This document shows positions 4,686-29,782 of a DNA stretch of 37,399 nucleotides, in pieces. The notes below the pieces were generated by a model, which saw nothing but the letters and a program-made list of their open reading frames with translations, had not been told where the DNA came from and made no database searches. The stretch lies in IMG/VR virus record IMGVR_UViG_3300042298_004108, positions 1 to 37,399 of that record. One strand, written 5' to 3'. The DNA is from a virus. Both the position numbers and the translations under genes were made by a program. Position 1 is the first letter of the stretch; each line of letters begins with the position of its first letter.

Positions 4686-5003
4686 TTATTTTTCTCTTAT
4701 AAGCAACTCACCTAATACCTCTAAACGACCAACTTCACGTTGGAATTCTGTTTGAGTCATACCTAATGATATTTTTTTATAGGTTTCATCGAATTCTTTT
4801 TTAGCGGCTTCTTTATCAAAATTACCTTTTATAGCTTTTTTATAGTAGGATGGTTTAACATTAAAGTGAGTATATGTTAATAAAGCATCTCCTCCTTTTT
4901 CTTTAGCATTAGCTATAATTTTTTCAGCACCTGCTAAACGATTGGTTGCAAATGTTTCAAAGCTTTCTTTAGCTTCGGTTAGTAGTTGGATAAGTTTAAT
5001 CAT
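4686..5003 (-). CDS. Putative packaged internal protein with capsid-targeting-like N-terminus
   Basis: The 105-residue protein starts MIKLIQLLTE followed by Ala. This is the same length and pattern as the T4 internal-protein capsid-targeting sequence (ten residues ending in I/L-x-E, then Ala), which T4 gp21 protease removes. The rest is helical and basic, with a conserved-looking block A-G-A-E-K-I-I-A-N-A-K-E-K-G-G-D-A-L-L-T-Y-near residues 24-44. The mature protein would begin at Ala11. Packaging inside the head is an inference from this N-terminus; the function of the mature part is unknown. Confidence 0.82.
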   Translation of the reverse strand: MIKLIQLLTEAKESFETFATNRLAGAEKIIANAKEKGGDALLTYTHFNVKPSYYKKAIKGNFDKEAAKKEFDETYKKISLGMTQTEFQREVGRLEVLGELLIREK

Positions 5004-5017
5004 TTTATTTTATTTTA

Positions 5018-5629
5018 TCACCAGAATCCTGAAAAGTTAGACTTCAAACCTAACAATTTTGCGTATCGAGGGAGCCTACAAGACCAGTATGAAGCCTTTG
5101 TTCTATCTTTTTTATTAGGGCAATCATGACGTGCTGAAAATGCTTTACGTGCTTGTGGGTTATTGATTTTAGCTGATAAACCTGTTGTATCACCAAATGA
5201 TACTTTTTTAATTCCACCACCTGGTTTTCTTACGTAAACATAGAATTTTTTAGAGCCACCACGCTTTGGTTTACCAATTGGGGGATCTTTTTTCTTTTTA
5301 TCTGCCTCGTTTACTTCTACCTCCTCGAAAATAAAATCTAAAGGGACTTTTTTATCCTCATACATACCAAAATGACCTAAATCGGTTTCAGTTAGTATCT
5401 CTAAATCATCTCCTTGCACTTCGATGATGTTACGGCTGTATAAAGCGCGGGCTTCAGCCCATAAATTAAAATAACTATCCGAGCCTGCACGATATACGTG
5501 CTCTGTAAGAGGTCGTGCGTTATCTAAGTGATATTTCAACCCCTCGGAAAGGATTGCTTTTGGTGCTACACTTTCGTTTAGCACCACTGGTCTTTTAGTA
5601 TCGCAAGTATTGCAGCCGCAGTCACACAT
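5018..5629 (-). CDS. Two-domain phage protein with Cys-rich N-terminus and DUF5872-like C-terminus
   Basis: The 203-residue protein has a Cys cluster at its start (C2, C4, C6, C9), then LNE-S at 17-20 and LSE-G at 27-30, which resemble prohead-protease sites. Residues 30-75 form a first domain. A Lys/Pro/Gly linker begins after V-N-E-A (about 106-109). The C-terminal domain (about 128-203) has Y-V-Y-V-R-K-P-G-G-G-I-K-K-V-S-F-G-D, A-R-K-A-F-S-A-R-H-D-C and Y-W-S-C-R-L-P, the pattern of the DUF5872-type domain found in marine phages and large viruses, function unknown. It follows an ATATTTATA motif only 3 nt before the ATG. Confidence 0.85.
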   Translation of the reverse strand: MCDCGCNTCDTKRPVVLNESVAPKAILSEGLKYHLDNARPLTEHVYRAGSDSYFNLWAEARALYSRNIIEVQGDDLEILTETDLGHFGMYEDKKVPLDFIFEEVEVNEADKKKKDPPIGKPKRGGSKKFYVYVRKPGGGIKKVSFGDTTGLSAKINNPQARKAFSARHDCPNKKDRTKASYWSCRLPRYAKLLGLKSNFSGFW

Positions 5630-5632
5630 ATC

Positions 5633-5641
5633 TATAAATAT
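5633..5641 (-). promoter_or_regulatory. Stranded ATATTTATA motif, 3 nt from ATG
   Basis: The coding strand reads ATATTTATA, then GAT, then the ATG at 5629. If this is the -10-type element, transcription would begin at or next to the start codon (leaderless message). It overlaps the stop of the upstream gene. Confidence 0.55.
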
Positions 5642-6840
5642 TAGGATATTTCTATTCCCCTGATTTTATCAATTATACCAAAACGAGATTGGGCGCCACC
5701 ACTACCGTCTGCTTTTTTAGAGAAAATAACAGGTAATGTTTTATCGTTTAGGTTTTGGGTAGCTTGAGTAAAGAACAAATCACCGTCTCTTTTTCTAATG
5801 TGAGCATATAATTTACCGGCTTTGTCTTCTATAAATTTATCTATTGGAATAAAACTACCATTTGTTATCTTGATAGTTTGTCCTTCAGGTTTTCCATCAA
5901 CCTCCATCTCACCAATATAATAATAAGAAACAGGACCACCCATTTCAGGTGTACCTTTTAAGATAGTTGATATAATTTTTTCTGGTACTTTGATTGATAC
6001 ATCAGGTACTAGTTTATTTTTATATAGGTTTTGTCCTTCTAGACCTTCTCTATCTACTACTTCTTTATAATAGGCATAAGCTTTATTATAAAAATCATCA
6101 ACGAAGTCTAATATTTCGGAATTAGCTCCTCCTTTAGTTAAAAGTTTAATACCAGCTATACCACCTGAACCTAAAGTAGGTGCTGAAGGGCCTTTAGCAG
6201 ATACTAAAAGTTCAGAACCATCAGTCATTACAAGTTTAACGTCTGAATATGGTTCGGTTCCTGCTGCTGATGATTCTTCTACTTTTTCTGCTTTAGCTAC
6301 ACCTTCAATTTTAGAACCATCTTTTGAGATAATAGTTTTAGTACCTTCAACTGAATTGATTAGATCAACTAGACTACGCTCTTGGCGTTCAGTAGTTTGA
6401 GCTTTACTACCTCCGGTACCTCCTAATTCTTTTGTTTTAAAAATAGATTTAAAGCCTATCTTATTACCTTTTGAATCTTTAAAAAATGGGAAAGAGTTAA
6501 TTGAAGAACCACCTATTCTTTTTATATCTTCTACTTTTTGATTTGAGAACAAATCACTATAGTCTTCATCAGTATATGTTAAAACTTCTTCTTTACCATC
6601 TTCTAATTTGAAAGGTTCACCTTTTTTGATTTTATCATCAATAACTGTTAAACGGTAGTATTTTCTAGAAGCATCACTTAAATCAGGCCATGTTAAAGCT
6701 TTTTCAAGTACTATTTCTTCTTTTAAAACTTTACTTAACAATAATTCGAGTAAAAGAATATCCTGCTCATTCTTCATGTCAGGATATCCCTTATCAAATT
6801 TGTAAGCGAACTTACGAAAAAATTTATCAAAAACGTTCAT
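5641..6840 (-). CDS. 399-residue protein, possible PD-(D/E)XK-like nuclease fold
   Basis: No family is recognised with confidence. Residues about 24-46 are a strongly hydrophobic/acidic helix ending I-V-L-E-K. In the middle, a helix (T-E-R-Q-E-R-S-L-V-D-L-I-N, 150-162) is followed by a strand with D200 (Y-S-D-V-K-L-V) and a hairpin to L-L-V-S-A-K-G (K216), then S-A-P-T-L-G-S-G-G. The E...D...SxK spacing is what restriction-enzyme-like folds show, with Ser in place of the usual Asp/Glu. I infer a nuclease-like fold at low confidence. It overlaps its upstream neighbour by TAATG and sits in the block of putative head-internal proteins. Confidence 0.8.
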   Translation of the reverse strand: MNVFDKFFRKFAYKFDKGYPDMKNEQDILLLELLLSKVLKEEIVLEKALTWPDLSDASRKYYRLTVIDDKIKKGEPFKLEDGKEEVLTYTDEDYSDLFSNQKVEDIKRIGGSSINSFPFFKDSKGNKIGFKSIFKTKELGGTGGSKAQTTERQERSLVDLINSVEGTKTIISKDGSKIEGVAKAEKVEESSAAGTEPYSDVKLVMTDGSELLVSAKGPSAPTLGSGGIAGIKLLTKGGANSEILDFVDDFYNKAYAYYKEVVDREGLEGQNLYKNKLVPDVSIKVPEKIISTILKGTPEMGGPVSYYYIGEMEVDGKPEGQTIKITNGSFIPIDKFIEDKAGKLYAHIRKRDGDLFFTQATQNLNDKTLPVIFSKKADGSGGAQSRFGIIDKIRGIEIS

Positions 6841-7316
6841 TATGCTTCTTCTGTTTCTGTTTCTTCAGCTGAGGCTTCTATTTCGGTTCCGCTACCCCCA
6901 TCACCTGAACTTCCAGTATCAAACTCTGCTGGATCTTGGGTACCTGAAGAGTTAGGCATACCATATCTTAGCATACGAGCAATAGCTTGAGTAGCGTTTT
7001 CTTCTTCATTTAAATTTAATAAATAGTATCTTTTGCCTTCAATTTCAGCTACCCAACTTCTTTCGTTAAATACTAAATAGAAATTTTCTCCGTTTTTAAG
7101 ATTAATACGGAATGTAGTAGGTTTTGGGGCTACCCAATCAATCGAAGCTAAGAATACGTCAAATTGTGGACCGAGTAGGTCTACAATTACGTCTTTTAGT
7201 TCTGGGAATTTAGTAAGCTCGTCATATTTTTCTGCGGTAATATCAACGAGCTTCTTTTCACCATAAACCGTTTTAACTAAAAGTTTGATTTTATCTCTTA
7301 GTTCGGATTTTTTCAT
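6840..7316 (-). CDS. Protein with recurrent MKxxEL N-terminus and acidic tail, unknown
   Basis: This 158-residue protein begins MKKSELRDKIKLLVKTV, matching the N-terminal helix of at least three other proteins here. A globular alpha/beta part follows (about 25-115, with strands in T-F-R-I-N-L-K and F-Y-L-V-F-N). The last 35 residues are Ser/Gly/Glu-rich and disordered-looking (ending A-E-E-T-E-T-E-E-A). Both ends overlap neighbours (TAATG), so it is made together with the 399- and 278-residue proteins. The function is unknown; a virion or scaffold-associated role is inferred only from context. Confidence 0.82.
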   Translation of the reverse strand: MKKSELRDKIKLLVKTVYGEKKLVDITAEKYDELTKFPELKDVIVDLLGPQFDVFLASIDWVAPKPTTFRINLKNGENFYLVFNERSWVAEIEGKRYYLLNLNEEENATQAIARMLRYGMPNSSGTQDPAEFDTGSSGDGGSGTEIEASAEETETEEA

Positions 7317-8152
7317 TATTTAGCTTTATTTGCTTTAAGTCTTTTAGCTATTCTTTCAGCTAAAGTTTCTTCAATTTCGTTTTCTAAAGGCTTAGTAGGA
7401 GTACTTGAAATAATATCTTCAGCAGCTGCTACACCTACCATAGCATCAATTTCTGGTTCTTTTGTTTCGAAATCAAGATAATGTTTTGCTGATACCATAT
7501 TGTTTGCAGATGTGGTAATTTTAGACTGCCACCATGCTGGAAAATCAACCTCACCCATACCCTCAAATTGATCTACCATTTGGTAAAGTTCCATAGCGTA
7601 TTTTCCAATACGGTATAGTTCGGATTTAATCATGTGTGGTTCGTCGTCCTCGTGTCCTAGGTCAAGATCTTCATCTATATCCATTTTACCACCGATGTAC
7701 TCTTCGTAGTCAGCAATAAAATCATCTTCACTAAAATTCTTGTAGCTACCTACACCATTAATACGAATGTCGTTTACTAACGATTTTACATAAGTAGCCC
7801 AGTCCCTATCTTCAGGACCTTCTTTAATATTTTTAGCAACAGCAGCACGGCGATTAGTTAAGTATTTATCAGTTTTATCTACTTTACCATCGTTATTGAT
7901 ATCAGCATCTTCTCTACCTACTGGGTCCATTTTTTCACTCATGGGCTTTGTTAAAGCTGCTTTGACCATTTCTCTAAGTTTGTTCTGTTCCATGTCTGTT
8001 TCGGCTAATTTTTTAGCTAGATTAGTTGCGCGACCATACATTACTTTCTCAGCGTCGGAGCCATACTTTTTAACTAAGTTGCGCTTATTTTTCTTCATAC
8101 TCATGATGAGATCTTCGCGCTTGGCTAATTCGGCTTTTGAAAGTTTTGCCAT
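7316..8152 (-). CDS. Phage protein with a single EF-hand-like calcium loop
   Basis: The 278-residue protein has three visible parts. Residues 1-70 are basic and helical (K-Y-G-S-D-A-E-K-V-M-Y-G-R-A-T), a block I remember from other marine phages. Residues 84-95 (D-I-N-N-D-G-K-V-D-K-T-D) form a textbook calcium-binding loop of the EF-hand/dockerin type with ligands at positions 1, 3, 5, 7, 9 and 12. Residues about 105-225 are acidic and helical, including a block with A-M-E-L-Y-Q-M-V and W-W-Q-S-K-I-T. The C-terminus is basic. A calcium-stabilised structural or head-internal protein is an inference. It starts next to the stop of the histone-like gene. Confidence 0.82.
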   Translation of the reverse strand: MAKLSKAELAKREDLIMSMKKNKRNLVKKYGSDAEKVMYGRATNLAKKLAETDMEQNKLREMVKAALTKPMSEKMDPVGREDADINNDGKVDKTDKYLTNRRAAVAKNIKEGPEDRDWATYVKSLVNDIRINGVGSYKNFSEDDFIADYEEYIGGKMDIDEDLDLGHEDDEPHMIKSELYRIGKYAMELYQMVDQFEGMGEVDFPAWWQSKITTSANNMVSAKHYLDFETKEPEIDAMVGVAAAEDIISSTPTKPLENEIEETLAERIAKRLKANKAK

Positions 8153-8329
8153 TTATTTAGATGCTTTATCTTCAGCAGTAGATGCTTTACGATATTCGGC
8201 TGCAAGCTTTTTAAGCTCACCTGCTATTTTGCGAGCACGTCCGTGAGCTGCTTTAGCTGTTTTATGGTGCTCGATGGTTAGAGTTTCTAAAACTGTTACC
8301 ATTTTGTCGTGTAGTTCTTGTGATGTCAT
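8153..8329 (-). CDS. Small basic Hc1/histone H1-like protein
   Basis: A 58-residue frame starts with ATG at 8329 and stops with TAA directly before the next ATG. It begins M-T-S-Q-E-L-H-D-K-M and the second half reads A-A-H-G-R-A-R-K-I-A-G-E-L-K-K-L-A-A-E-Y-followed by R-K-A-S. This matches the short histone H1-like Hc1 proteins of chlamydiae and Bacteroidota in length, in the R-x-R-K helix and in the Y-R-K-x-S ending. Such proteins bind and compact DNA. It could help condense phage DNA in the head or alter the host nucleoid. The start is fixed by the five-base gap to the upstream stop at 8335. A general basic helical protein is the alternative. Confidence 0.75.
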   Translation of the reverse strand: MTSQELHDKMVTVLETLTIEHHKTAKAAHGRARKIAGELKKLAAEYRKASTAEDKASK

Positions 8330-8334
8330 ATCTT

Positions 8335-8925
8335 TTATTTTATTTTATTCCACATTGGGAATGTTATACCTTCATTTAAATTTTCTCTTTCTTCGTCTAC
8401 TTTAGCCATTGTTGGTTGGTCACCACCAACAACGAAATCGCGAGTAAAGAATGTGATTGTGTTGCCAACCTGAGTGATGAATTTTTGGTCACCAAACTCT
8501 TCGGCTTGTGCTCTTAGAGTCTCTAGTGAGTCAAGGATTTTTCTTGTATCATTTGGGAGTGAAGATAGAGAAACGATTTTCTTATCGATTACGATTGAAT
8601 CGCTAGCTTTTTCTTCGCCACCTTCGTCTTCAACTTCTTCTTCAGCATCAACTTCGATGTCTGTTTCTTCTTCTTCAGCTTCGGCTAAACCTTCAGCCTG
8701 ATAAGGATCCTTTTTAGTGCCTGTAATACGAGCTAGAATATCGTTTTTGCTTTCTTTTTCTGTTTCTTCTTCTTCAGAAAGCCGAGCTAACATTTCGTCG
8801 AGGTCTTCTTCAACTTCAATTTCGGCTACAAAGCTATAGGCGCTTTCATCAGCGTACTGACCATCACTACCCATTTCAGCTAAAAAAGCTGACTTAATTA
8901 TTTCTTCTAATTCTTTTCTTTTCAT
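8335..8925 (-). CDS. Very acidic protein with MKxxEL N-terminus, possible core/scaffold
   Basis: I place the start at the ATG at 8925 (196 residues). An in-frame ATG at 9003 would add 26 residues, but these overlap the upstream gene and the ATATTTATA motif and are unlike the conserved N-terminus. The protein begins MKRKELEEIIKSAFLAE, then has a long Glu/Asp-rich stretch (about residues 35-105), and a globular tail with I-T-F-F-T-R-D-F-V-V-G-G and a C-terminal L-N-E-G-I-T-F-P-M-W. Acidity and helical character resemble phage scaffold or core proteins, which is an inference. LNE-G near the end is a possible prohead-protease site. Confidence 0.8.
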   Translation of the reverse strand: MKRKELEEIIKSAFLAEMGSDGQYADESAYSFVAEIEVEEDLDEMLARLSEEEETEKESKNDILARITGTKKDPYQAEGLAEAEEEETDIEVDAEEEVEDEGGEEKASDSIVIDKKIVSLSSLPNDTRKILDSLETLRAQAEEFGDQKFITQVGNTITFFTRDFVVGGDQPTMAKVDEERENLNEGITFPMWNKIK

Positions 8926-8946
8926 TGCAATGAATTTGATATATGT

Positions 8947-8955
8947 TATAAATAT
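8947..8955 (-). promoter_or_regulatory. Stranded ATATTTATA motif
   Basis: ATATTTATA on the coding strand ends 21 nt before the ATG at 8925 and starts five bases after the stop of the upstream gene. It supports the choice of 8925 rather than 9003 as the start. Confidence 0.6.
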
Positions 8956-8959
8956 GCGT

Positions 8960-9238
8960 TTATTTCCTAAAGCGTACCTTTGCTTTAGGTGTATTAGATA
9001 CAAACTGTTTACCTTTTTTACTACCAGCTACTTTCTTTCTTGCAGTAGCTGCTCTTTGTGCTTTAGTTAAGCGTTGTGCTTTTGCTTTTGGTAGGCAACG
9101 TGTTGTTGCTTTGCCGGGTTTCATTGTACCACAAGGACCGGTTATATTACCAGCAGTATCGATACGCACCCAGTTCTCTTTTTTGAACCAGTCGCGTAGC
9201 GATTCTGTGATTATCTCTTGTAGACGTTCGTGTGTCAC
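8960..9238 (-). CDS. Small basic protein with Cys/Lys-rich core, GTG start
   Basis: The 92-residue protein starts with GTG at 9238, coupled to the upstream stop as GTGA. It opens T-H-E-R-L-Q-E-I-I-T-E-S, a variant of the recurrent N-terminal helix with a possible ITE-S cleavage site. The core W-V-R-I-D-T-A-G-N-I-T-G-P-C-G and R-C-L-P-K-A-K, followed by T-K-A-Q-R-A-A-T-A-R-K-K, is a pattern I recall from many marine phages, function unknown. The strongly basic second half suggests nucleic-acid contact. It may be packaged with the DNA, which is inference. Confidence 0.83.
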   Translation of the reverse strand: MTHERLQEIITESLRDWFKKENWVRIDTAGNITGPCGTMKPGKATTRCLPKAKAQRLTKAQRAATARKKVAGSKKGKQFVSNTPKAKVRFRK

Positions 9239-9915
9239 CCTTTCATTTGTCCTTTACAAACCTTAACAGCACGGCCCGAAAGATAAGCAGATGATTTTTC
9301 TCCGGCTGCTTGTCTTTTCTTGATGTATGCTTTACCTTTTGGGCAAAGTTCCTCGTAGATAACACCTTCACCTAAACGTGTAGTTTCCTCTACATCATCA
9401 TCGTCTCCCATAGTAGCAATCTTCATCAAGATTTTATCCATAACATCCTGTGTTAAACCTTGAGTTTTGCCTTTTGGGTTTTCTGGGGTAGCTAGATATT
9501 TTGAATAGCCGGTCATTTCATCAATGGGTTCACCTATAATATCTTGATAATCTTCCATTGATAAAAGACCTCTTAGCTTAACGGCTTCGATAGCGCGTTC
9601 TGTTACCTTATGTAGGTCAATATCTTGTTCAGCGTCCTCTCTTGCGTACTCTAACATACGAAGAAATAGGGGAATATCCATTGCAATAATGTCTGTTGGG
9701 TCTTCTTGTTCTTCTCTAATATTTTGAGCAACACCTTTAACTTTATCTACTAACTGCTTTAAAAGATCGTAGCTAAAGCCTGTTTCTTTCATTGCGTCTT
9801 TAATGTCCATTTTACCCTTAGCTACAAGTGTAGCATATGATAATGGTGAATAATCATTAGTAACTTCTTCTAGGGGGGTAGAGAAGAATTCTTGTACTTT
9901 TTTTAGGTCTTTCAT
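9235..9915 (-). CDS. Conserved phage protein with C-terminal Cys/Lys-rich motif, unknown
   Basis: The 226-residue protein starts MKDLKKVQEFFSTPLEE. Its middle (about 80-125) is helical, with M-L-E-Y-A-R-E-D-A-E-Q-D and L-H-K-V-T-E-R-A-I-E, and contains M-E-D-Y-Q-D-I-I-G. The last 40 residues (E-L-C-P-K-G-K-A-Y-I-K-K-R and S-S-A-Y-L-S-G-R-A-V-K-V-C-K-G) form a basic module with two Cys that recurs in marine phages next to genes like the one following here. The start overlaps the upstream stop (TAATG) and the end overlaps the next GTG. Function is unknown; both neighbours share the Lys-rich C-P-K-type tail. Confidence 0.83.
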   Translation of the reverse strand: MKDLKKVQEFFSTPLEEVTNDYSPLSYATLVAKGKMDIKDAMKETGFSYDLLKQLVDKVKGVAQNIREEQEDPTDIIAMDIPLFLRMLEYAREDAEQDIDLHKVTERAIEAVKLRGLLSMEDYQDIIGEPIDEMTGYSKYLATPENPKGKTQGLTQDVMDKILMKIATMGDDDDVEETTRLGEGVIYEELCPKGKAYIKKRQAAGEKSSAYLSGRAVKVCKGQMKG

Positions 9916-10412
9916 TACGATACGTCTTTTTCTGAAAATGATATTTTAATATTTTTATCTTTTAAAGACTTGATAATTTCTCTATCAGTATCATCGTCTT
10001 CAGCAAATATTTTATTGATACCTAAATTCTTAAGTAAATCGTCAAATTTAGCCCCAAAGAAATCCTTTTTAGAGCCATCTTTATAAGTTGCTCTAGCTCG
10101 GTTGAATAAACCTTCTCTTTCAGTATACCATAAATCAAGAGATTCGATTCCAGATGTTTCAGCCTCGTTTAAGGATTCCATATTTAATTCAGCTTGAAGA
10201 GCATCCATAAATTTTTTTTGCAATTCTGCTTGATATCCATTCTTAACTATAATAGCAATTGCTGCTCCTAAATCTTCTGGGAGAATACCTGAAGGATCAA
10301 TTTCGTCAAGAACTTTATCTATCGCTGTTGCCGTCTGACTTGCTAGACTTTCCTGAAGTCCCGCTTCCATCAAGTATTGGTTTTTCATCCACGTGTTTGT
10401 GTTGAAGTTCAT
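9915..10412 (-). CDS. Unknown helical protein with LME-A and LNE-A sites
   Basis: This 165-residue acidic, mostly helical protein contains Y-L-M-E-A at residues 13-17 and L-N-E-A-E-T near 80, both of the L-x-E-A form that T4-type prohead proteases cut. The second part has W-Y-T-E-R-E-G-L-F-N-R-A-R and ends with a Lys-rich stretch. The start is uncertain: ATG at 10412 is the longest choice, with ATGs at residues 9 and 15. Any of these overlaps the small 74-residue gene by about 60-100 bases. No family is recognised. Confidence 0.75.
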   Translation of the reverse strand: MNFNTNTWMKNQYLMEAGLQESLASQTATAIDKVLDEIDPSGILPEDLGAAIAIIVKNGYQAELQKKFMDALQAELNMESLNEAETSGIESLDLWYTEREGLFNRARATYKDGSKKDFFGAKFDDLLKNLGINKIFAEDDDTDREIIKSLKDKNIKISFSEKDVS

Positions 10413-10553: not shown

Positions 10554-11126
10554 CTATCTTTTAAGGGATTCAAGGTATGCAATAGTTTCTACTAGAGATT
10601 TATCTGATAGTTCTTTATTTATACCGCCTGTCCATTTTTGAACTTCACCCTGCTCACTAACAAACCCCTGATTTGATTCTGTAAATAAATTTTCCATCCA
10701 CTCTTTAAAACCATTAATAGTATTATCTACTATAGTGTTGTGGAGTTGATTAGTGTAAGTTTCCCAAAGACCTTTTTTTTTAAGTTCATGTTCAAAATCA
10801 ACATGACAATCAAAACAATGTCTAAAATGAGTATAGATGTCTTTATCTATATTTTTATTCATAATACGACTACAAGATGGGCAAAATAAAGGCATTACAG
10901 CCTCTTTTGCTTTATCTAATTTAGTGATATTTTGTTTAATACCATCTTTAATAGTCCATTGACGACCATTTTTAGTCCAAATATCTCCTTCTTTATGAAA
11001 TTCTTGAGTTTTATTATAACCTACTCCTTTTAAAGTTCGGTCTCCAGTATTACCTGAAACTACATTTCGTAAACGTTGAACTTCTTTTTCGTTAAATTCT
11101 TTTTTTAAAACTGATTCGTTTTTCAT
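10554..11126 (-). CDS. Zinc-finger phage protein, unknown function
   Basis: The 190-residue protein has a treble-clef or zinc-ribbon-like module: F-C-P-S-C (C82, C85) and H-C-F-D-C (C104, C107), with His at 100 and 103 nearby. The first 70 residues contain the motif G-D-I-W-T-K-N-G-R-Q-W-T-I-K-D-G, and the C-terminal part is helical. This combination is familiar from T4-like phages of aquatic bacteria, without a known function; a nucleic-acid or protein-binding adapter is plausible. It overlaps the large multi-enzyme gene by ATGA and is therefore coupled to it. Confidence 0.85.
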   Translation of the reverse strand: MKNESVLKKEFNEKEVQRLRNVVSGNTGDRTLKGVGYNKTQEFHKEGDIWTKNGRQWTIKDGIKQNITKLDKAKEAVMPLFCPSCSRIMNKNIDKDIYTHFRHCFDCHVDFEHELKKKGLWETYTNQLHNTIVDNTINGFKEWMENLFTESNQGFVSEQGEVQKWTGGINKELSDKSLVETIAYLESLKR

Positions 11127-14080
11127 AAACCTAAATCTTGTAATTGTTTAATTGTATCTTCGGCTGAGGTGTGAAATATACCAATCCCACCTGCGGAATT
11201 CCAAGCATCAATTGTATCTTTTCTATCGTCAATTAAAATTGAATCAGGACGAGCAAATTTTACTTTATTTTTAGCAGAAGCAAAATACATTTTACGCATA
11301 TTAGATAAGCGCTGGCTCCACTCAGTTTTACCTTGCATTGACTCATTGTACTCTGGAGAGTATCTTTGATCTGCAGGAGCATCAAAGTTTACTGAGGGGG
11401 CAGTTAAAACATATGGGTTGTATTTCTTAATATAATCCCAATATTTTTTTCCATCAGGCATCCAATCTAAACTAGCCCAGTATTCCTTTTCAGACATACC
11501 TTTTTCTTTTAGGCTATCTCTAAATATTTTCCAAAATTCTGTTTTACCTTGAGTATCAGCATGGTGGGTAGCCATACCTGTTAAATCTTTATAACCTTTA
11601 TCAAAATCAGCTAATACACCGTCCATATCAGAAAAGATATAGTATTTTTTCTTTTTAACACCCGTATCGTAAAGGTGTGAGGACTCTTTTACGTAGGTAC
11701 TAGTAAAGGTAGGTAAACTTAAAGCTTTTGCTCTTTTAGCCCATAAATTAAGGATATCTTTTCTTTCTTCCTGATTGATAGGTTGTTTATCTAAATAATC
11801 ATCTATAACCTCTAAATAGGGTTTACGAGATTTTTTAGCCTTAAAATAGAGACCTTGAAGCATTGCATCTATTTCCTTTTCTAATTTAAAATAGTCTGAT
11901 TTAGGGAGTAAATCAGCATTGATCATATCTCTAATAAACTCATCATCCTCCATTTTCTTTCCAGGACGTAAGTTAGCTCCGTCTTGTGTTAGGTGTTCAA
12001 GCTCGTGTCTGATAACGTCTTTTAAGTCAAACGAAACGGTCTGCCAATCTATATCTTTTGGGATTTCAAATCTAACTGATAGTAAAGGAGTAATTTCATC
12101 TTTTTTATCATCATACCCAGCATTTGCTCCTCCGTCTACTGTATAAGTATCGTCTGTATAAACTGCTTGAACATAAAAATCAAATTCAAAATCATCAGAG
12201 ATAATATCTGGGTCTTCATCAGCTGGTCCTACTGTAAATGTTTCATCTACTACTTTTCTACCTACATCGTATCCGTCTTTCATTAATTCGAAAGCAAAAC
12301 TAGAGAGTTCGTTAGTAAATTTATCGTATCGGCCTTCGTTTAATTGTTCTTCACCTAAACGAGCTAATTCGTAAGCAAAAGCATTTAAACCAAATGGATC
12401 TTTTACTTTACCACTTGGATTATTTTGCTTTTTATAATTATCCATATTTTTATTGGATGTTTTTTGACCATCTTCCTGTAAACTGTCTGTCCAGTTACGG
12501 AATGTCATTGTACCCTTTAGGTTAGCTTCTTTTTCAAGATCATTGATATGATCGTCCTCTAAAGTATTAGTAGTAGATACATCTCCTAATCTTCCCTCCA
12601 GGTTTTGGATGTGGTGAATCATTTCATGCGCGTAAGAACGCACAATATCTTTGGGATGACGCCCATAAGTGTATAGGATGATAGACTTATTGATTGGATC
12701 ATAGTATGCGGTTTTACCCAAGAATTCCCCGGCATTTTCTCTATCATCGTCTATGATTGTTATACCTGGAACTGGGTCGATATTGTATCCCTTTTCTCTC
12801 ATATAAAGAGTTAACTCGGCTATTTTTTCGAGTATATCAATTGAAGGGATAGTGTTTTCGGTTATATCTCTATAGTTTTGAGATGGTGGAAATGTCCCCA
12901 TTTTTTTCTTAGCCTGTTCTTTTGTTTTATAAGGGCCAAATTCTTGCCTAATACCTGGAGCAAATGGGTTGTCTTGGATATAGTAGTATTTATCTCCTCT
13001 TTTTTCAATAGCTCTATAGCGGGGTTGATTACCAAATGCTGTTTTTTCATTTACTTCTTTATACCCCGAACCCAGTTTGCCTGATTTACCATCGTGGTTA
13101 GGTGCTACGTTTTCTTTTTTTAAACGTTCAGTTTTTTCTTTAGATGCTTCTTTTCTCTGTTCAGCATAATCTAAAGCTGTTTTTAAACGTCTTTTAACAT
13201 CAGGATCTTTAGCTCTTTCGTAAGCTGCTCTTACTCGCTGGTGAATCAAATTAATGATTTGAGATTGACGAGCGTGTGGTTTAGATTTAAAAGAAGATTT
13301 AGATAAAGTATCTATAATGTCTTGCTTAGTAGAAAATTTTACTTTAACAGTATCGCTCGGATCTTCATCTGTGTATAATCTACGAGATGATCCTTTAGGT
13401 TTTTTACCTGTACCTGTTTTAGGATCTGCTTCCTCTAAACCACCAGGTGTATCTAATTTTTTACCTGTTTTAACATCTGTATCATAACCACAAGATCCCT
13501 CTTTTACAATAGCTTTAGTTACAATATTATATATATCTTCTTTCTCGTTAGCAGGTACCTCATCTGGGAGGAATGTAAAGAATTTTTCTTTATCTCCTTT
13601 TTGTAATGCTTTACGAGCATTAGTTCCACTTATTTCAGGATCTGGGGTAGTAATTACTTTAACCTCTAAATTAGGATATTTTTCTTCTACTCCTTTAGTA
13701 CGTAAAGTAATATCTTTTAAATCATCTTCTCTACCTTCACGATACCCAATTATAAAATATACTTTTTCGTTTGGGTGATCTTTAGCGTAACGTAAAACAT
13801 CTTTAATGGGTTGGACTGAGGGTTCTATTTGAACTTTAGAACCTAATATTTCTTTATAGACATCCCAAATAGCCATTGATTGTTCTTGGGTGATACCATC
13901 TCTAACACCACCACCCACATAAATGATAAAATCATCAATTTCAGGTAAATCTTTAAGTGCGGTTTGAACTAATCTAAAGTGACCTTTGATGGGAGGTTTA
14001 AACCCACCACCATAAACAGCAGTGACTTTTTGGTTATTTTCTAACAAAGGACGGATAAGTTCTTTAACTAATTGATTCAT
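11123..14080 (-). CDS. Multi-enzyme protein: nucleotidyltransferase, two HExxH domains, HAD phosphatase
   Basis: This 985-residue protein joins four enzyme-like domains. Residues 20-185 are a cytidylyltransferase/NMNAT-like fold with G-G-F-K-P-P-I-K-G-H-F (25-35; the first His of the usual HxGH is Ile) and I-S-G-T-N-A-R (150-156). Residues 340-405 are a small tyrosine-rich domain. Residues 410-575 hold HEMIH (485-489) and a downstream L-E-K-E-A; residues 585-790 hold HELEH (692-696) and L-E-K-E-I, both fitting gluzincin-type metallopeptidases. Residues 812-985 are a HAD phosphatase/nucleotidase (F-S-D-M-D-G-V-L-A-D-F). Glu sites lie at or near the junctions: 194, 217, 408, 582 and 799. The N-terminus (LLE-N at 12-15) is capsid-targeting-like. 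It overlaps both neighbours by ATGA. A packaged, processed polyprotein is my inference. Confidence 0.88.
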   Translation of the reverse strand: MNQLVKELIRPLLENNQKVTAVYGGGFKPPIKGHFRLVQTALKDLPEIDDFIIYVGGGVRDGITQEQSMAIWDVYKEILGSKVQIEPSVQPIKDVLRYAKDHPNEKVYFIIGYREGREDDLKDITLRTKGVEEKYPNLEVKVITTPDPEISGTNARKALQKGDKEKFFTFLPDEVPANEKEDIYNIVTKAIVKEGSCGYDTDVKTGKKLDTPGGLEEADPKTGTGKKPKGSSRRLYTDEDPSDTVKVKFSTKQDIIDTLSKSSFKSKPHARQSQIINLIHQRVRAAYERAKDPDVKRRLKTALDYAEQRKEASKEKTERLKKENVAPNHDGKSGKLGSGYKEVNEKTAFGNQPRYRAIEKRGDKYYYIQDNPFAPGIRQEFGPYKTKEQAKKKMGTFPPSQNYRDITENTIPSIDILEKIAELTLYMREKGYNIDPVPGITIIDDDRENAGEFLGKTAYYDPINKSIILYTYGRHPKDIVRSYAHEMIHHIQNLEGRLGDVSTTNTLEDDHINDLEKEANLKGTMTFRNWTDSLQEDGQKTSNKNMDNYKKQNNPSGKVKDPFGLNAFAYELARLGEEQLNEGRYDKFTNELSSFAFELMKDGYDVGRKVVDETFTVGPADEDPDIISDDFEFDFYVQAVYTDDTYTVDGGANAGYDDKKDEITPLLSVRFEIPKDIDWQTVSFDLKDVIRHELEHLTQDGANLRPGKKMEDDEFIRDMINADLLPKSDYFKLEKEIDAMLQGLYFKAKKSRKPYLEVIDDYLDKQPINQEERKDILNLWAKRAKALSLPTFTSTYVKESSHLYDTGVKKKKYYIFSDMDGVLADFDKGYKDLTGMATHHADTQGKTEFWKIFRDSLKEKGMSEKEYWASLDWMPDGKKYWDYIKKYNPYVLTAPSVNFDAPADQRYSPEYNESMQGKTEWSQRLSNMRKMYFASAKNKVKFARPDSILIDDRKDTIDAWNSAGGIGIFHTSAEDTIKQLQDLGL

Positions 14081-14880
14081 GAAGCTAAGAATGACTTTAA
14101 TTTAGATTGAGCTTCTTCAGGACTTACTATTTGTTGAACTGTTTTTGTAACGTTTTCTTTAGACATTAAATCTCGTATTTCCTGTTCAAGTTTTTCTTTT
14201 TGAGCTATTGATCTAGCTTTTTCCTTCTCTGATTTTTCTTTTGCGTCAGTAGGAATATACGGAGAAATATACTGGTCTACAATGTCTTCCAAATCTCTTG
14301 CGTCAACTAATTTTTTATCTTTTGTAGTAGCTACAAAGTTATTTCCAAATAAATTAAGATAAGGGATAAAGTTTTTAGTTACATTAGCCCATGTTTGCAT
14401 TACAATTGAAGGCATTAAACTACGATCTTCACCTCCTGAGCGTTCAAATCTATCTTCGTTTTTATCAAGTGATTTTTCAAGTGAAGAATAAACGTAAACC
14501 ATAAACACTTCATAACCAGCATCTTCTAAAGTTTTCTTTAATTGCTCTGTTTTGTTAAATGAAGCAGCAGTACCATCAATTACAATGTTTTCTCTATCTT
14601 GAATATCTTGGTTAAGTTTTTGCTGGTATGATTTTTGGGCTTGTTGCATTGCAACTGCTGCTTTACTTCTACCTTCAGAATCTGCTTTTTTAAGATCTAA
14701 AGATACCCCAGCTGCTTTTAAATTAGCTATAAAATCGTCATCAATATTTAAAACTTTTAAACCTAAATTTGAGATAATATCTCCAACAATAGATGATTTA
14801 CCAGCACCAGGAGCACCAGCTAAGATGACAGCTTTAGGAGCACCTTGTGCCTCTCTAAGTAATTGAACCAATGAAATCAT
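14077..14880 (-). CDS. P-loop kinase (zeta-toxin/AAA_33-like) with capsid-targeting-like N-terminus
   Basis: The 267-residue protein begins MISLVQLLRE then Ala, matching the T4 capsid-targeting sequence in length and in the L-x-E-A end. The enzyme part starts immediately after: a strand (A-V-I-L-A), Walker A G-A-P-G-A-G-K-S-S (22-30), an acidic N-I-D-D-D-F substrate-side motif, and I-V-I-D-G-T as Walker B region, with D-R-F-E-R and a lid-like stretch. This is the layout of zeta-toxin/polynucleotide-kinase-like small-molecule kinases. The C-terminal 60 residues are a charged coiled-coil-like helix. It is the first gene after the motif at 14896 and overlaps the multi-enzyme gene by ATGA. A kinase packaged in the head and injected is inferred; the substrate is unknown. 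Confidence 0.88.
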   Translation of the reverse strand: MISLVQLLREAQGAPKAVILAGAPGAGKSSIVGDIISNLGLKVLNIDDDFIANLKAAGVSLDLKKADSEGRSKAAVAMQQAQKSYQQKLNQDIQDRENIVIDGTAASFNKTEQLKKTLEDAGYEVFMVYVYSSLEKSLDKNEDRFERSGGEDRSLMPSIVMQTWANVTKNFIPYLNLFGNNFVATTKDKKLVDARDLEDIVDQYISPYIPTDAKEKSEKEKARSIAQKEKLEQEIRDLMSKENVTKTVQQIVSPEEAQSKLKSFLAS

Positions 14881-28982: not shown

Positions 28983-29387
28983 TTATAAGTTTAATGTTAA
29001 TTCTCCAGAGATTGTAGTATTAATAACGTTGTAAAATATCTGAACTGTAATTATATTATAGTCTGGTTGTGATAATACATCCAATCTTTGAACATTTACT
29101 GTGGGAAAATTTTGAGCAAGTTTATTTTGTATATCTTGCTTTATACCCTCTAAGTTATCATTAGAAATCTGATCAAAAATATATTGACGTAAATTTCCAC
29201 CATAAGTTGGGTTTAGAGGTCTTTCACCAGTATTGGTTAAAAAATAATCTATTAAATTAGCTTTTACAGCTTCACCAGTAGTGTACGTAGATTTAAAACA
29301 AGCAGGGCCATTAAAAGGTAACGCTACCCCTACCGCTCTACCTGGGCGGAAATCAATTGGTGGGATTTGTTGAGCGTTATATGGCAT
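28983..29387 (-). CDS. gp25: Baseplate wedge protein, T4 gp25-like
   Basis: At 134 residues it has nearly the same length as T4 gp25 (132). The conserved strand-helix G-E-R-P-L-N-P-T-Y-G-G (54-64), followed by L-R-Q-Y-I-F-D, carries the E-P-R-like motif of the gp25/lysozyme-like wedge family that also occurs in type VI secretion baseplates. The C-terminal strands (N-I-I-T-V-Q-I-F-Y-N-V) complete the fold. It binds the sheath initiator end of the baseplate and pairs with gp6. It is coupled to the upstream 131-residue gene by TAATG and ends one base before the gp6-like start. Confidence 0.93.
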   Translation of the reverse strand: MPYNAQQIPPIDFRPGRAVGVALPFNGPACFKSTYTTGEAVKANLIDYFLTNTGERPLNPTYGGNLRQYIFDQISNDNLEGIKQDIQNKLAQNFPTVNVQRLDVLSQPDYNIITVQIFYNVINTTISGELTLNL

Positions 29388-29782
29388 TACTTTTTATTCA
29401 TCAAATCCATAATCATGCCTAATCCTACATTTCCTTCTGGGAGTTTAGTTCCATCTCCCATAGTGTTCATACCAGGAGCTACTTGAAGAGTATTAGCATC
29501 AGTTCCCATACTTCTAGCATCTGAAGAGTTAAATGACATAGTTTTCATCTCGTTTAACATGTCAGTATACATTGCTCTTTTTTCAGCATATGATGTATTA
29601 CTGGGTTGGGGTGTTACTGGGGTACCTGTATTAACTACCCCATATCCAATTCCTCCTATAGGAGATTCAATGATTGGGGCTTTAGGTGCACGAACTGCTT
29701 CCAAAAGGATGTTTTTTAATTCCTCTTGGATAGCTTCTCTTACGGCTTCTTTAATTAAGTTTTTTAATTCCGCGGTTTTCAT
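29387..29782 (-). CDS. Protein with MKxxEL N-terminus inside the baseplate operon
   Basis: The 131-residue protein starts MKTAELKNLIKEAVREAIQE, then L-K-N-I-L-L-E-A (a possible cleavage site after E28) and I-I-E-S (E39). The rest is Gly/Met/Thr-rich, low in secondary structure, with short repeats of the type S-M-G-T-D and T-M-G-D-G. The long amphipathic N-terminal helix with the same opening as proteins in block 5 is notable because this gene lies between spike and gp25 genes. The ATATTTATA motif lies 4 nt from the ATG. Function unknown. Confidence 0.82.
   Translation of the reverse strand: MKTAELKNLIKEAVREAIQEELKNILLEAVRAPKAPIIESPIGGIGYGVVNTGTPVTPQPSNTSYAEKRAMYTDMLNEMKTMSFNSSDARSMGTDANTLQVAPGMNTMGDGTKLPEGNVGLGMIMDLMNKK

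Follow-up and report, generated by a model that had tools for sequence, protein, structure and literature searches.

A predicted virion cargo polyprotein with prohead-protease-type motifs between its enzyme modules in T4-type ocean phages

Why would a phage string a number of unrelated enzyme domains together in a single protein? The window, a stretch of 37,399 nucleotides that makes up IMG/VR virus record IMGVR_UViG_3300042298_004108 from position 1 to 37,399, holds a minus-strand open reading frame (ORF) of 985 residues, present exactly where the preliminary description had placed it, in which we identified four such domains (modules A, D, E, and F; Table 1), with a putative zincin MPTase as the hub. 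The cutting of polyproteins is characteristic of RNA viruses and retroviruses. We consider it likely, from comparative sequence evidence, that the 985-residue protein is a virion cargo polyprotein that is targeted by a leader, cut at its linkers by the prohead protease gp21, and destined to deliver its enzymes at infection. A polyprotein packaged in the head and cut into separate enzymes had been proposed from the sequence of the window, and the comparison of relatives lends this proposal good support, with the leader, the presence of gp21 and gp23, and the separate leader-bearing genes for the same modules all in agreement. More than a hundred related phages show the same arrangement.

Table 1. 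Positions in the window of the candidate polyprotein, its predicted parts, and neighboring genes (a slash marks a predicted cut)
Feature	Coordinates	Strand	Remarks
985-aa candidate polyprotein ORF	11123..14080	minus	ATG at 14080, coding to 11126, stop 11123-11125; relatives in IMG/VR
Capsid-targeting-type leader MNQLVKELIRPLLE, residues 1-14	14039..14080	minus	predicted cut after E14 (LLE/N)
Module A, residues 15-194, adenylyltransferase fold	13499..14038	minus	GGGFKPPIKGHF signature; predicted cut IVKE/G
Spacer GSCGYDTDVKTGKKLDTPGGLEE, residues 195-217	13430..13498	minus	predicted cut LEE/A; from AF2 model and recurrence in relatives
Module B and linker, residues 218-345	13046..13429	minus	DPKTGTGKKPKGSSRRLYTDE..., basic helical; then NVAPNHDGKSGKLGSGYKEVNE; predicted cut VNE/K
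Module C, residues 346-408, small, Tyr-rich	12857..13045	minus	RYRAIEKRGDKYYYIQDN...; predicted cut ITE/N
Module D, residues 409-582, zincin-like metallopeptidase (zincin-1)	12335..12856	minus	HEMIHH and downstream Glu (EKEANLKG); predicted cut LNE/G
Module E, residues 583-799, second zincin-like domain (zincin-2)	11684..12334	minus	HELEH and KEIDA; predicted cut VKE/S
Module F, residues 800-985, HAD-fold 5'(3')-deoxyribonucleotidase (NT5C type)	11126..11683	minus	phrog_2643, 1.3e-23
Upstream P-loop kinase/ATPase-like protein	14077..14880	minus	leader MISLVQLLRE/A
Other genes of the cluster, N-termini leader-like	4686..10412	minus	includes modular SKAELAKREDLIMSMK gene
Modular SKAELAKREDLIMSMK gene, second family	7316-8152	minus	SKAELAKREDLIMSMK..., ...EDLDLGHEDDEPHM..., KEPEIDAMV...

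The whole 985-residue protein had no match in Pfam, and the modules were assigned individually. Module A falls in the NMN/NaMN/phosphopantetheine adenylyltransferase superfamily, with NadD and PPAT as its top Foldseek matches, a PF01467 match in relative L009, and PDB profile matches. Modules D and E are zincin-like by their HExxH and conserved downstream Glu motifs; the homologue (gp088, 907 aa) in Flavobacterium phage immuto, the closest isolate, which infects host LMO8, has a weak Peptidase_M91 match, and sequence searches of the zincin modules against solved structures gave no identification. The core of module D ends near LQE/D at residue 536 and is followed by a disordered tail with VKDPFGLNAFAYELA. 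Further matches of module F are PF06941 (weak) and PDB 4mum. In the AlphaFold2 (AF2) model, which was built on an alignment of 46 relatives and has a mean pLDDT of 79.6, the leader forms a helix at residues 2 to 14. Between the two zincin modules, residues 556 to 582 (about 12335-12415) form a conserved disordered peptide (KDPFGLNxYARELA...E) that resembles an internal leader, and a similar peptide precedes other modules in relative L220.

One line of evidence for cleavage is where the Glu sites lie. All five sites named in the preliminary description were found at the residues given there (IVKE/G 194, GLEE/A 217, DITE/N 408, QLNE/G 582, and YVKE/S 799), and it had missed those at the leader end (LLE/N 14), at VNE/K 345, and at 536 and 577; its wider claim of a site at or near every boundary does not extend to the join between module B and its linker (KKE/N 323), which lacks [LIVM]xE. 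Because [LI]xE occurs in the whole protein at the frequency expected by shuffling (10 observed versus 9.6 expected), a raw tally is uninformative, and the nonrandom aspect is placement. The low-confidence segments of the AF2 model (residues 192-204, 206-238, 323-353, 399-413, 536-560, 564-582, and 795-810) contain sites 194, 217, 345, 408, 536, 577, 582, and 799. With the join consensus widened from [L/I]-x-E to L/I/V/M at P3, as seen in gp23 of the relatives, eight motifs lie in these disordered linkers against 2.8 expected (Fisher P value = 0.003). One of these four residues occupies P3 at 8/13 linker Glu but at 10/60 Glu in folded parts, while the four together make up only 12% of linker residues; the control motif [LIVM]xD was located in linkers in just 1 of 29 cases. 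Similar sequences had also been noted after the two VKE sites. The likeness proved weak: the first is the 23-aa spacer (GSCGYDxDxKTxKKLxTPGGLEE), which also occurs upstream of module B in relatives L178 and L205, and the second is limited to close relatives; an S/C..YDT.VK repeat was rejected as a general feature.

Scans of IMG/VR for relatives returned about 280 loci, some of them overlapping on the same contig, and revealed a protein family in which modules are gained or lost as whole units and are also moved, fused, and split. Module orders include ABCDEF, ABDEF, ADEF, ADE, ABDF, AEDEBF, and others. Module A is joined straight to D in L004 (VVRE/NLTSS), E is replaced in L011, and B has moved next to F in L019; L015 has no E and two extra modules, and its D-F join is without the consensus motif. 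In L241 to L256, module B occurs as a free-standing leaderless protein (MADPKVGTGKKPKG...).

Such rearrangement allows the motif to be followed through unrelated contexts, and it is here that the evidence is strong. Loss of the Glu sites from relatives that keep the domains had been named as evidence that would count against cleavage; instead, the sites are kept in the contexts of zincin-1, zincin-2, and module B. Zincin-1 contexts were anchored on the conserved core because the HMM start is a poor anchor. [LIVMF]xE occurs within 9 to 32 residues upstream of this core in 109/110 distinct contexts, and in 71 contexts the site stands exactly 16 residues before a conserved L-T-x-x-M even though the upstream modules are unrelated. 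Upstream of zincin-2, weighted frequencies reach 96% for L/I/M/V at P3 and 96% for Glu at P1, with P4 to P10 unconserved. The site precedes module B in 66 of 68 internal copies and in 20 of 24 copies behind leader-sized N-termini but in 0 of 7 leaderless free copies, against a background of 18% of random windows of the same proteins. In the lineage of the window itself, conservation of the Glu sites is uneven: it is highest at E582 (0.84), E408 (0.79), E14 (0.65), and E194 (0.58) and lower at E217 and E345 (0.49 each) and E799 (0.45); averaged over every Glu in the protein, the value is 0.44.

A broader comparison used homology breakpoints, defined as positions inside modular proteins at which BLAST alignments stop, thinned to limit redundancy and chosen blind to Glu. 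Of 547 breakpoints, 214 lie near [LIVM]xE, compared with 104.7 expected (z = 12.4); because the relatives share ancestry, this and the other tallies across relatives are descriptive, and the z-scores overstate independence. The remaining long ORFs at these loci, tried as a negative control, had the same enrichment, many of them belonging to a second modular family, and motif-based controls were therefore used. At the same breakpoints, z was -1.5 for [LIVM]xD, 1.3 for xK, -3.3 for xQ, -1.5 for x[NSTG], and 1.4 for polar-xE. Inside modules, [LIVM]xE is depleted relative to shuffled sequence (A, 0.64; B, 0.38; D, 0.50; E, 0.27), with module F near parity (0.93), whereas [LIVM]xD occurs there at 1.05 to 1.90 of the shuffled value.

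The same modules also occur as separate genes behind leaders. Stand-alone zincin-2 genes begin MKYIKQFENFLINE/GRYDKI and MIKLIDILKE/GAYDSM, matching the internal QLNE/GRYDKF, and a stand-alone module B gene begins MIKLVDILKEITE/GDPK. Module F, a separate gene in immuto (gp087, MKKVMGNLADLLLEE/SD), forms part of the fused chain in 78 proteins; at 42 loci it follows as the next gene, 37 times with a motif-bearing leader. Among 104 relatives that begin with module A, 81 have the leader and 22 lack it, the protein then starting at the adenylyltransferase (MGKVIAAYGGGFKPP). These leaderless relatives include L009, L015, L018, L019, L051, and L060, and several keep internal sites. In the close relatives L003, L005, L010, and L011, the leader ends in Asp (LIDG, LVDG). 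In T4, gp21 cleaves after L/I-x-E, a 10-residue leader is enough for targeting and packaging, and Asp at the leader end prevents cutting and still allows targeting (PMC9026906).

Since the window contig, a 37-kb fragment, yielded no gp21, we examined long relatives. A Peptidase_S77 (gp21) gene and gp23 are present in 18 of 20 of these and also in immuto, where the protease is gp070. The gp23 N-termini of the relatives carry LLE/S or LFE/G near residue 9, LLE/G near 36, and LVxE or IVxE near 63. With the mature end of gp23 placed by analogy with T4, LVxE and IVxE suggest that Val at P3 looks acceptable in these phages.

Indirect evidence from virions comes from cyanophages: among the modules, it is for a homologue of A that virion mass spectrometry has been published. 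The module A HMM matches cyanophage cytidylyltransferases (ACG-2014f, 3.3e-15; P-RSM4, 2.6e-14), and the P-RSM4 homologue is annotated as T4-GC 190, a family detected in purified S-SM1 virions (PMC3037559). Cytidylyltransferase was likewise detected in S-CREM2 virions, with possible carry-over during purification noted by the authors (PMC10665884). The cyanophage copies carry leaders of the same type (P-SSM2, MKSFSQFLTE/; P-RSM4, MKKFNAFLIE/A; S-N03, MKGFSNFLIE/). The literature searched contained no virion proteome of immuto.

In the mechanism we propose, the N-terminal helix MNQLVKELIRPLLE would serve as a capsid-targeting sequence of the T4 type and draw the entire polyprotein into the core of the prohead. 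A gp21-type prohead protease would then recognize [L/I/V/M]-x-E in the disordered linkers and cut on the C-terminal side of the Glu. Its action is predicted to remove the leader and to free the 23-aa spacer and about six units: the adenylyltransferase A (180 aa), B with its linker (128 aa), C (63 aa), the zincin D (174 aa, or about 128 aa after trimming at 536), the zincin E (217 aa), and the HAD deoxyribonucleotidase F (186 aa). The freed enzymes would stay close to the DNA and pass into the cell on infection. What we observed is the motif pattern, its persistence through module shuffling, its position in linkers, and, in relatives, gp21 together with gp23 bearing the same motif; packaging, cleavage, delivery, and enzyme roles we infer.

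Other explanations can be given for parts of this evidence. The chain might be packaged but stay intact, or lose its leader only, with the LxE motifs being scars of leaders left by gene fusion. Modules do exist as separate leader-bearing genes, whose fusion would leave leader remnants, and a leader-like peptide, DPFGLNAFAYELARLGEEQLNE, precedes module E. Yet scars should decay, and what is kept upstream of zincin-2 is P3 and P1 alone, with P4 to P10 free; the motif is also depleted inside folded modules, and inside the prohead, a disordered linker that keeps the consensus would be expected to be cut. We therefore think this explanation unlikely. Alternatively, the protein might be a multidomain polyvalent protein whose zincin domains carry out the processing, through auto- or trans-cleavage and with no part for the prohead protease. 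In favor of this are the two HExxH domains in the chain and the prediction of Iyer et al. (2017) that packaged polyvalent proteins undergo processing driven by an MPTase (PMC5512222). We consider self-processing of this kind quite unlikely, although a zinc enzyme may have some part in the cutting. Of 15 complete module B proteins in which HExxH is absent throughout, 13 retain the site, which argues against it; moreover, the motif matches both the N-terminus of the major capsid protein and the T4 gp21 sites, and the leaders of single-module genes end in the same motif.

It is highly improbable, finally, that the protein is an ordinary cytoplasmic multi-enzyme fusion in which Glu-rich linkers and the motif coincide by chance. 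The chance-level total of [LI]xE, the charged linkers, and the 22 relatives without a leader would fit such a fusion, but the breakpoints show no enrichment of the control motifs [LIVM]xD, xK, xQ, or polar-xE, and leaderless free copies of module B are without the site.

The predicted gp21-cut cargo chain has clear parallels in known systems. Like the T4 internal head proteins IPI, IPII, IPIII, and Alt, it combines a short helical leader ending in hydrophobic-x-E with cargo and, in the relatives, with gp21 and gp23. The T4 cuts, however, remove terminal propeptides, N-terminal ones and, in gp21 and Alt, also C-terminal ones (PMC9026906), whereas the sites described here lie between one folded enzyme and the next along a single chain. 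Polyvalent proteins share many disparate enzymatic domains, including zincin MPTases, and are predicted to be injected, but they are predicted to be processed by an MPTase of their own or by an assemblin-like peptidase fused to them (PMC5512222), while the motif at the joins of the polyprotein is that of a prohead protease encoded separately. In phiKZ and SPN3US (gp175, gp245), a relative of gp21 cuts many packaged proteins behind Glu (S/A-x-E, A-x-E), but the SPN3US cuts remove N-terminal propeptides, except for the protease's own C-terminal one, and involve no multi-enzyme chain (PMC10052503). Cyanophage T4-GC190 shares the module A homologue, the leader, and detection of its family in virions but is a single enzyme with an additional C-terminal region rather than a multi-zincin chain. 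Capsid-targeting leaders, gp21, and polyvalent proteins are thus already known, and what appears to be new is their combination as a multi-enzyme cargo chain with protease-site joins. No description of such a combination, and no phrase such as "bacteriophage polyprotein," was found in the literature searched, which lacks most subscription journals.

The polyprotein is probably part of a wider system. Because of its leader, the upstream P-loop protein is probably packaged too. At least one further family in the same cluster is, as far as its sequence indicates, built with the same junction signature: relatives of the SKAELAKREDLIMSMK gene reach 975 aa, their homology breakpoints are likewise enriched for [LIVM]xE, and parts of the gene are present in >200 cyanophage records. 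Elsewhere in the window, a small two-module protein (5018-5629, minus strand) has joins VLNE/S and EVNE/ADKKKKDPP before a phrog_7595 module, and a tail-cluster gene (29387-29782, minus strand) has a leader-like N-terminus, MKTAELKNLIKEAVREAIQEELKNILLE/A. We lean, with less confidence than for the polyprotein itself, toward a general cargo cassette system in marine T4-type phages, in which modules flanked by protease sites are shuffled between leader-bearing genes and long chains.

If the polyprotein reading is true, the prohead protease would have a second job, that of releasing packaged enzymes, and this would explain the free swapping of modules. In a cassette system, one leader would import many enzymes in equal numbers, and maturation would release them. 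Under the polyprotein reading, [LIVM]xE in linkers together with a leader would also predict virion cargo across many ocean phages, most of whose genes now carry the annotation "hypothetical."
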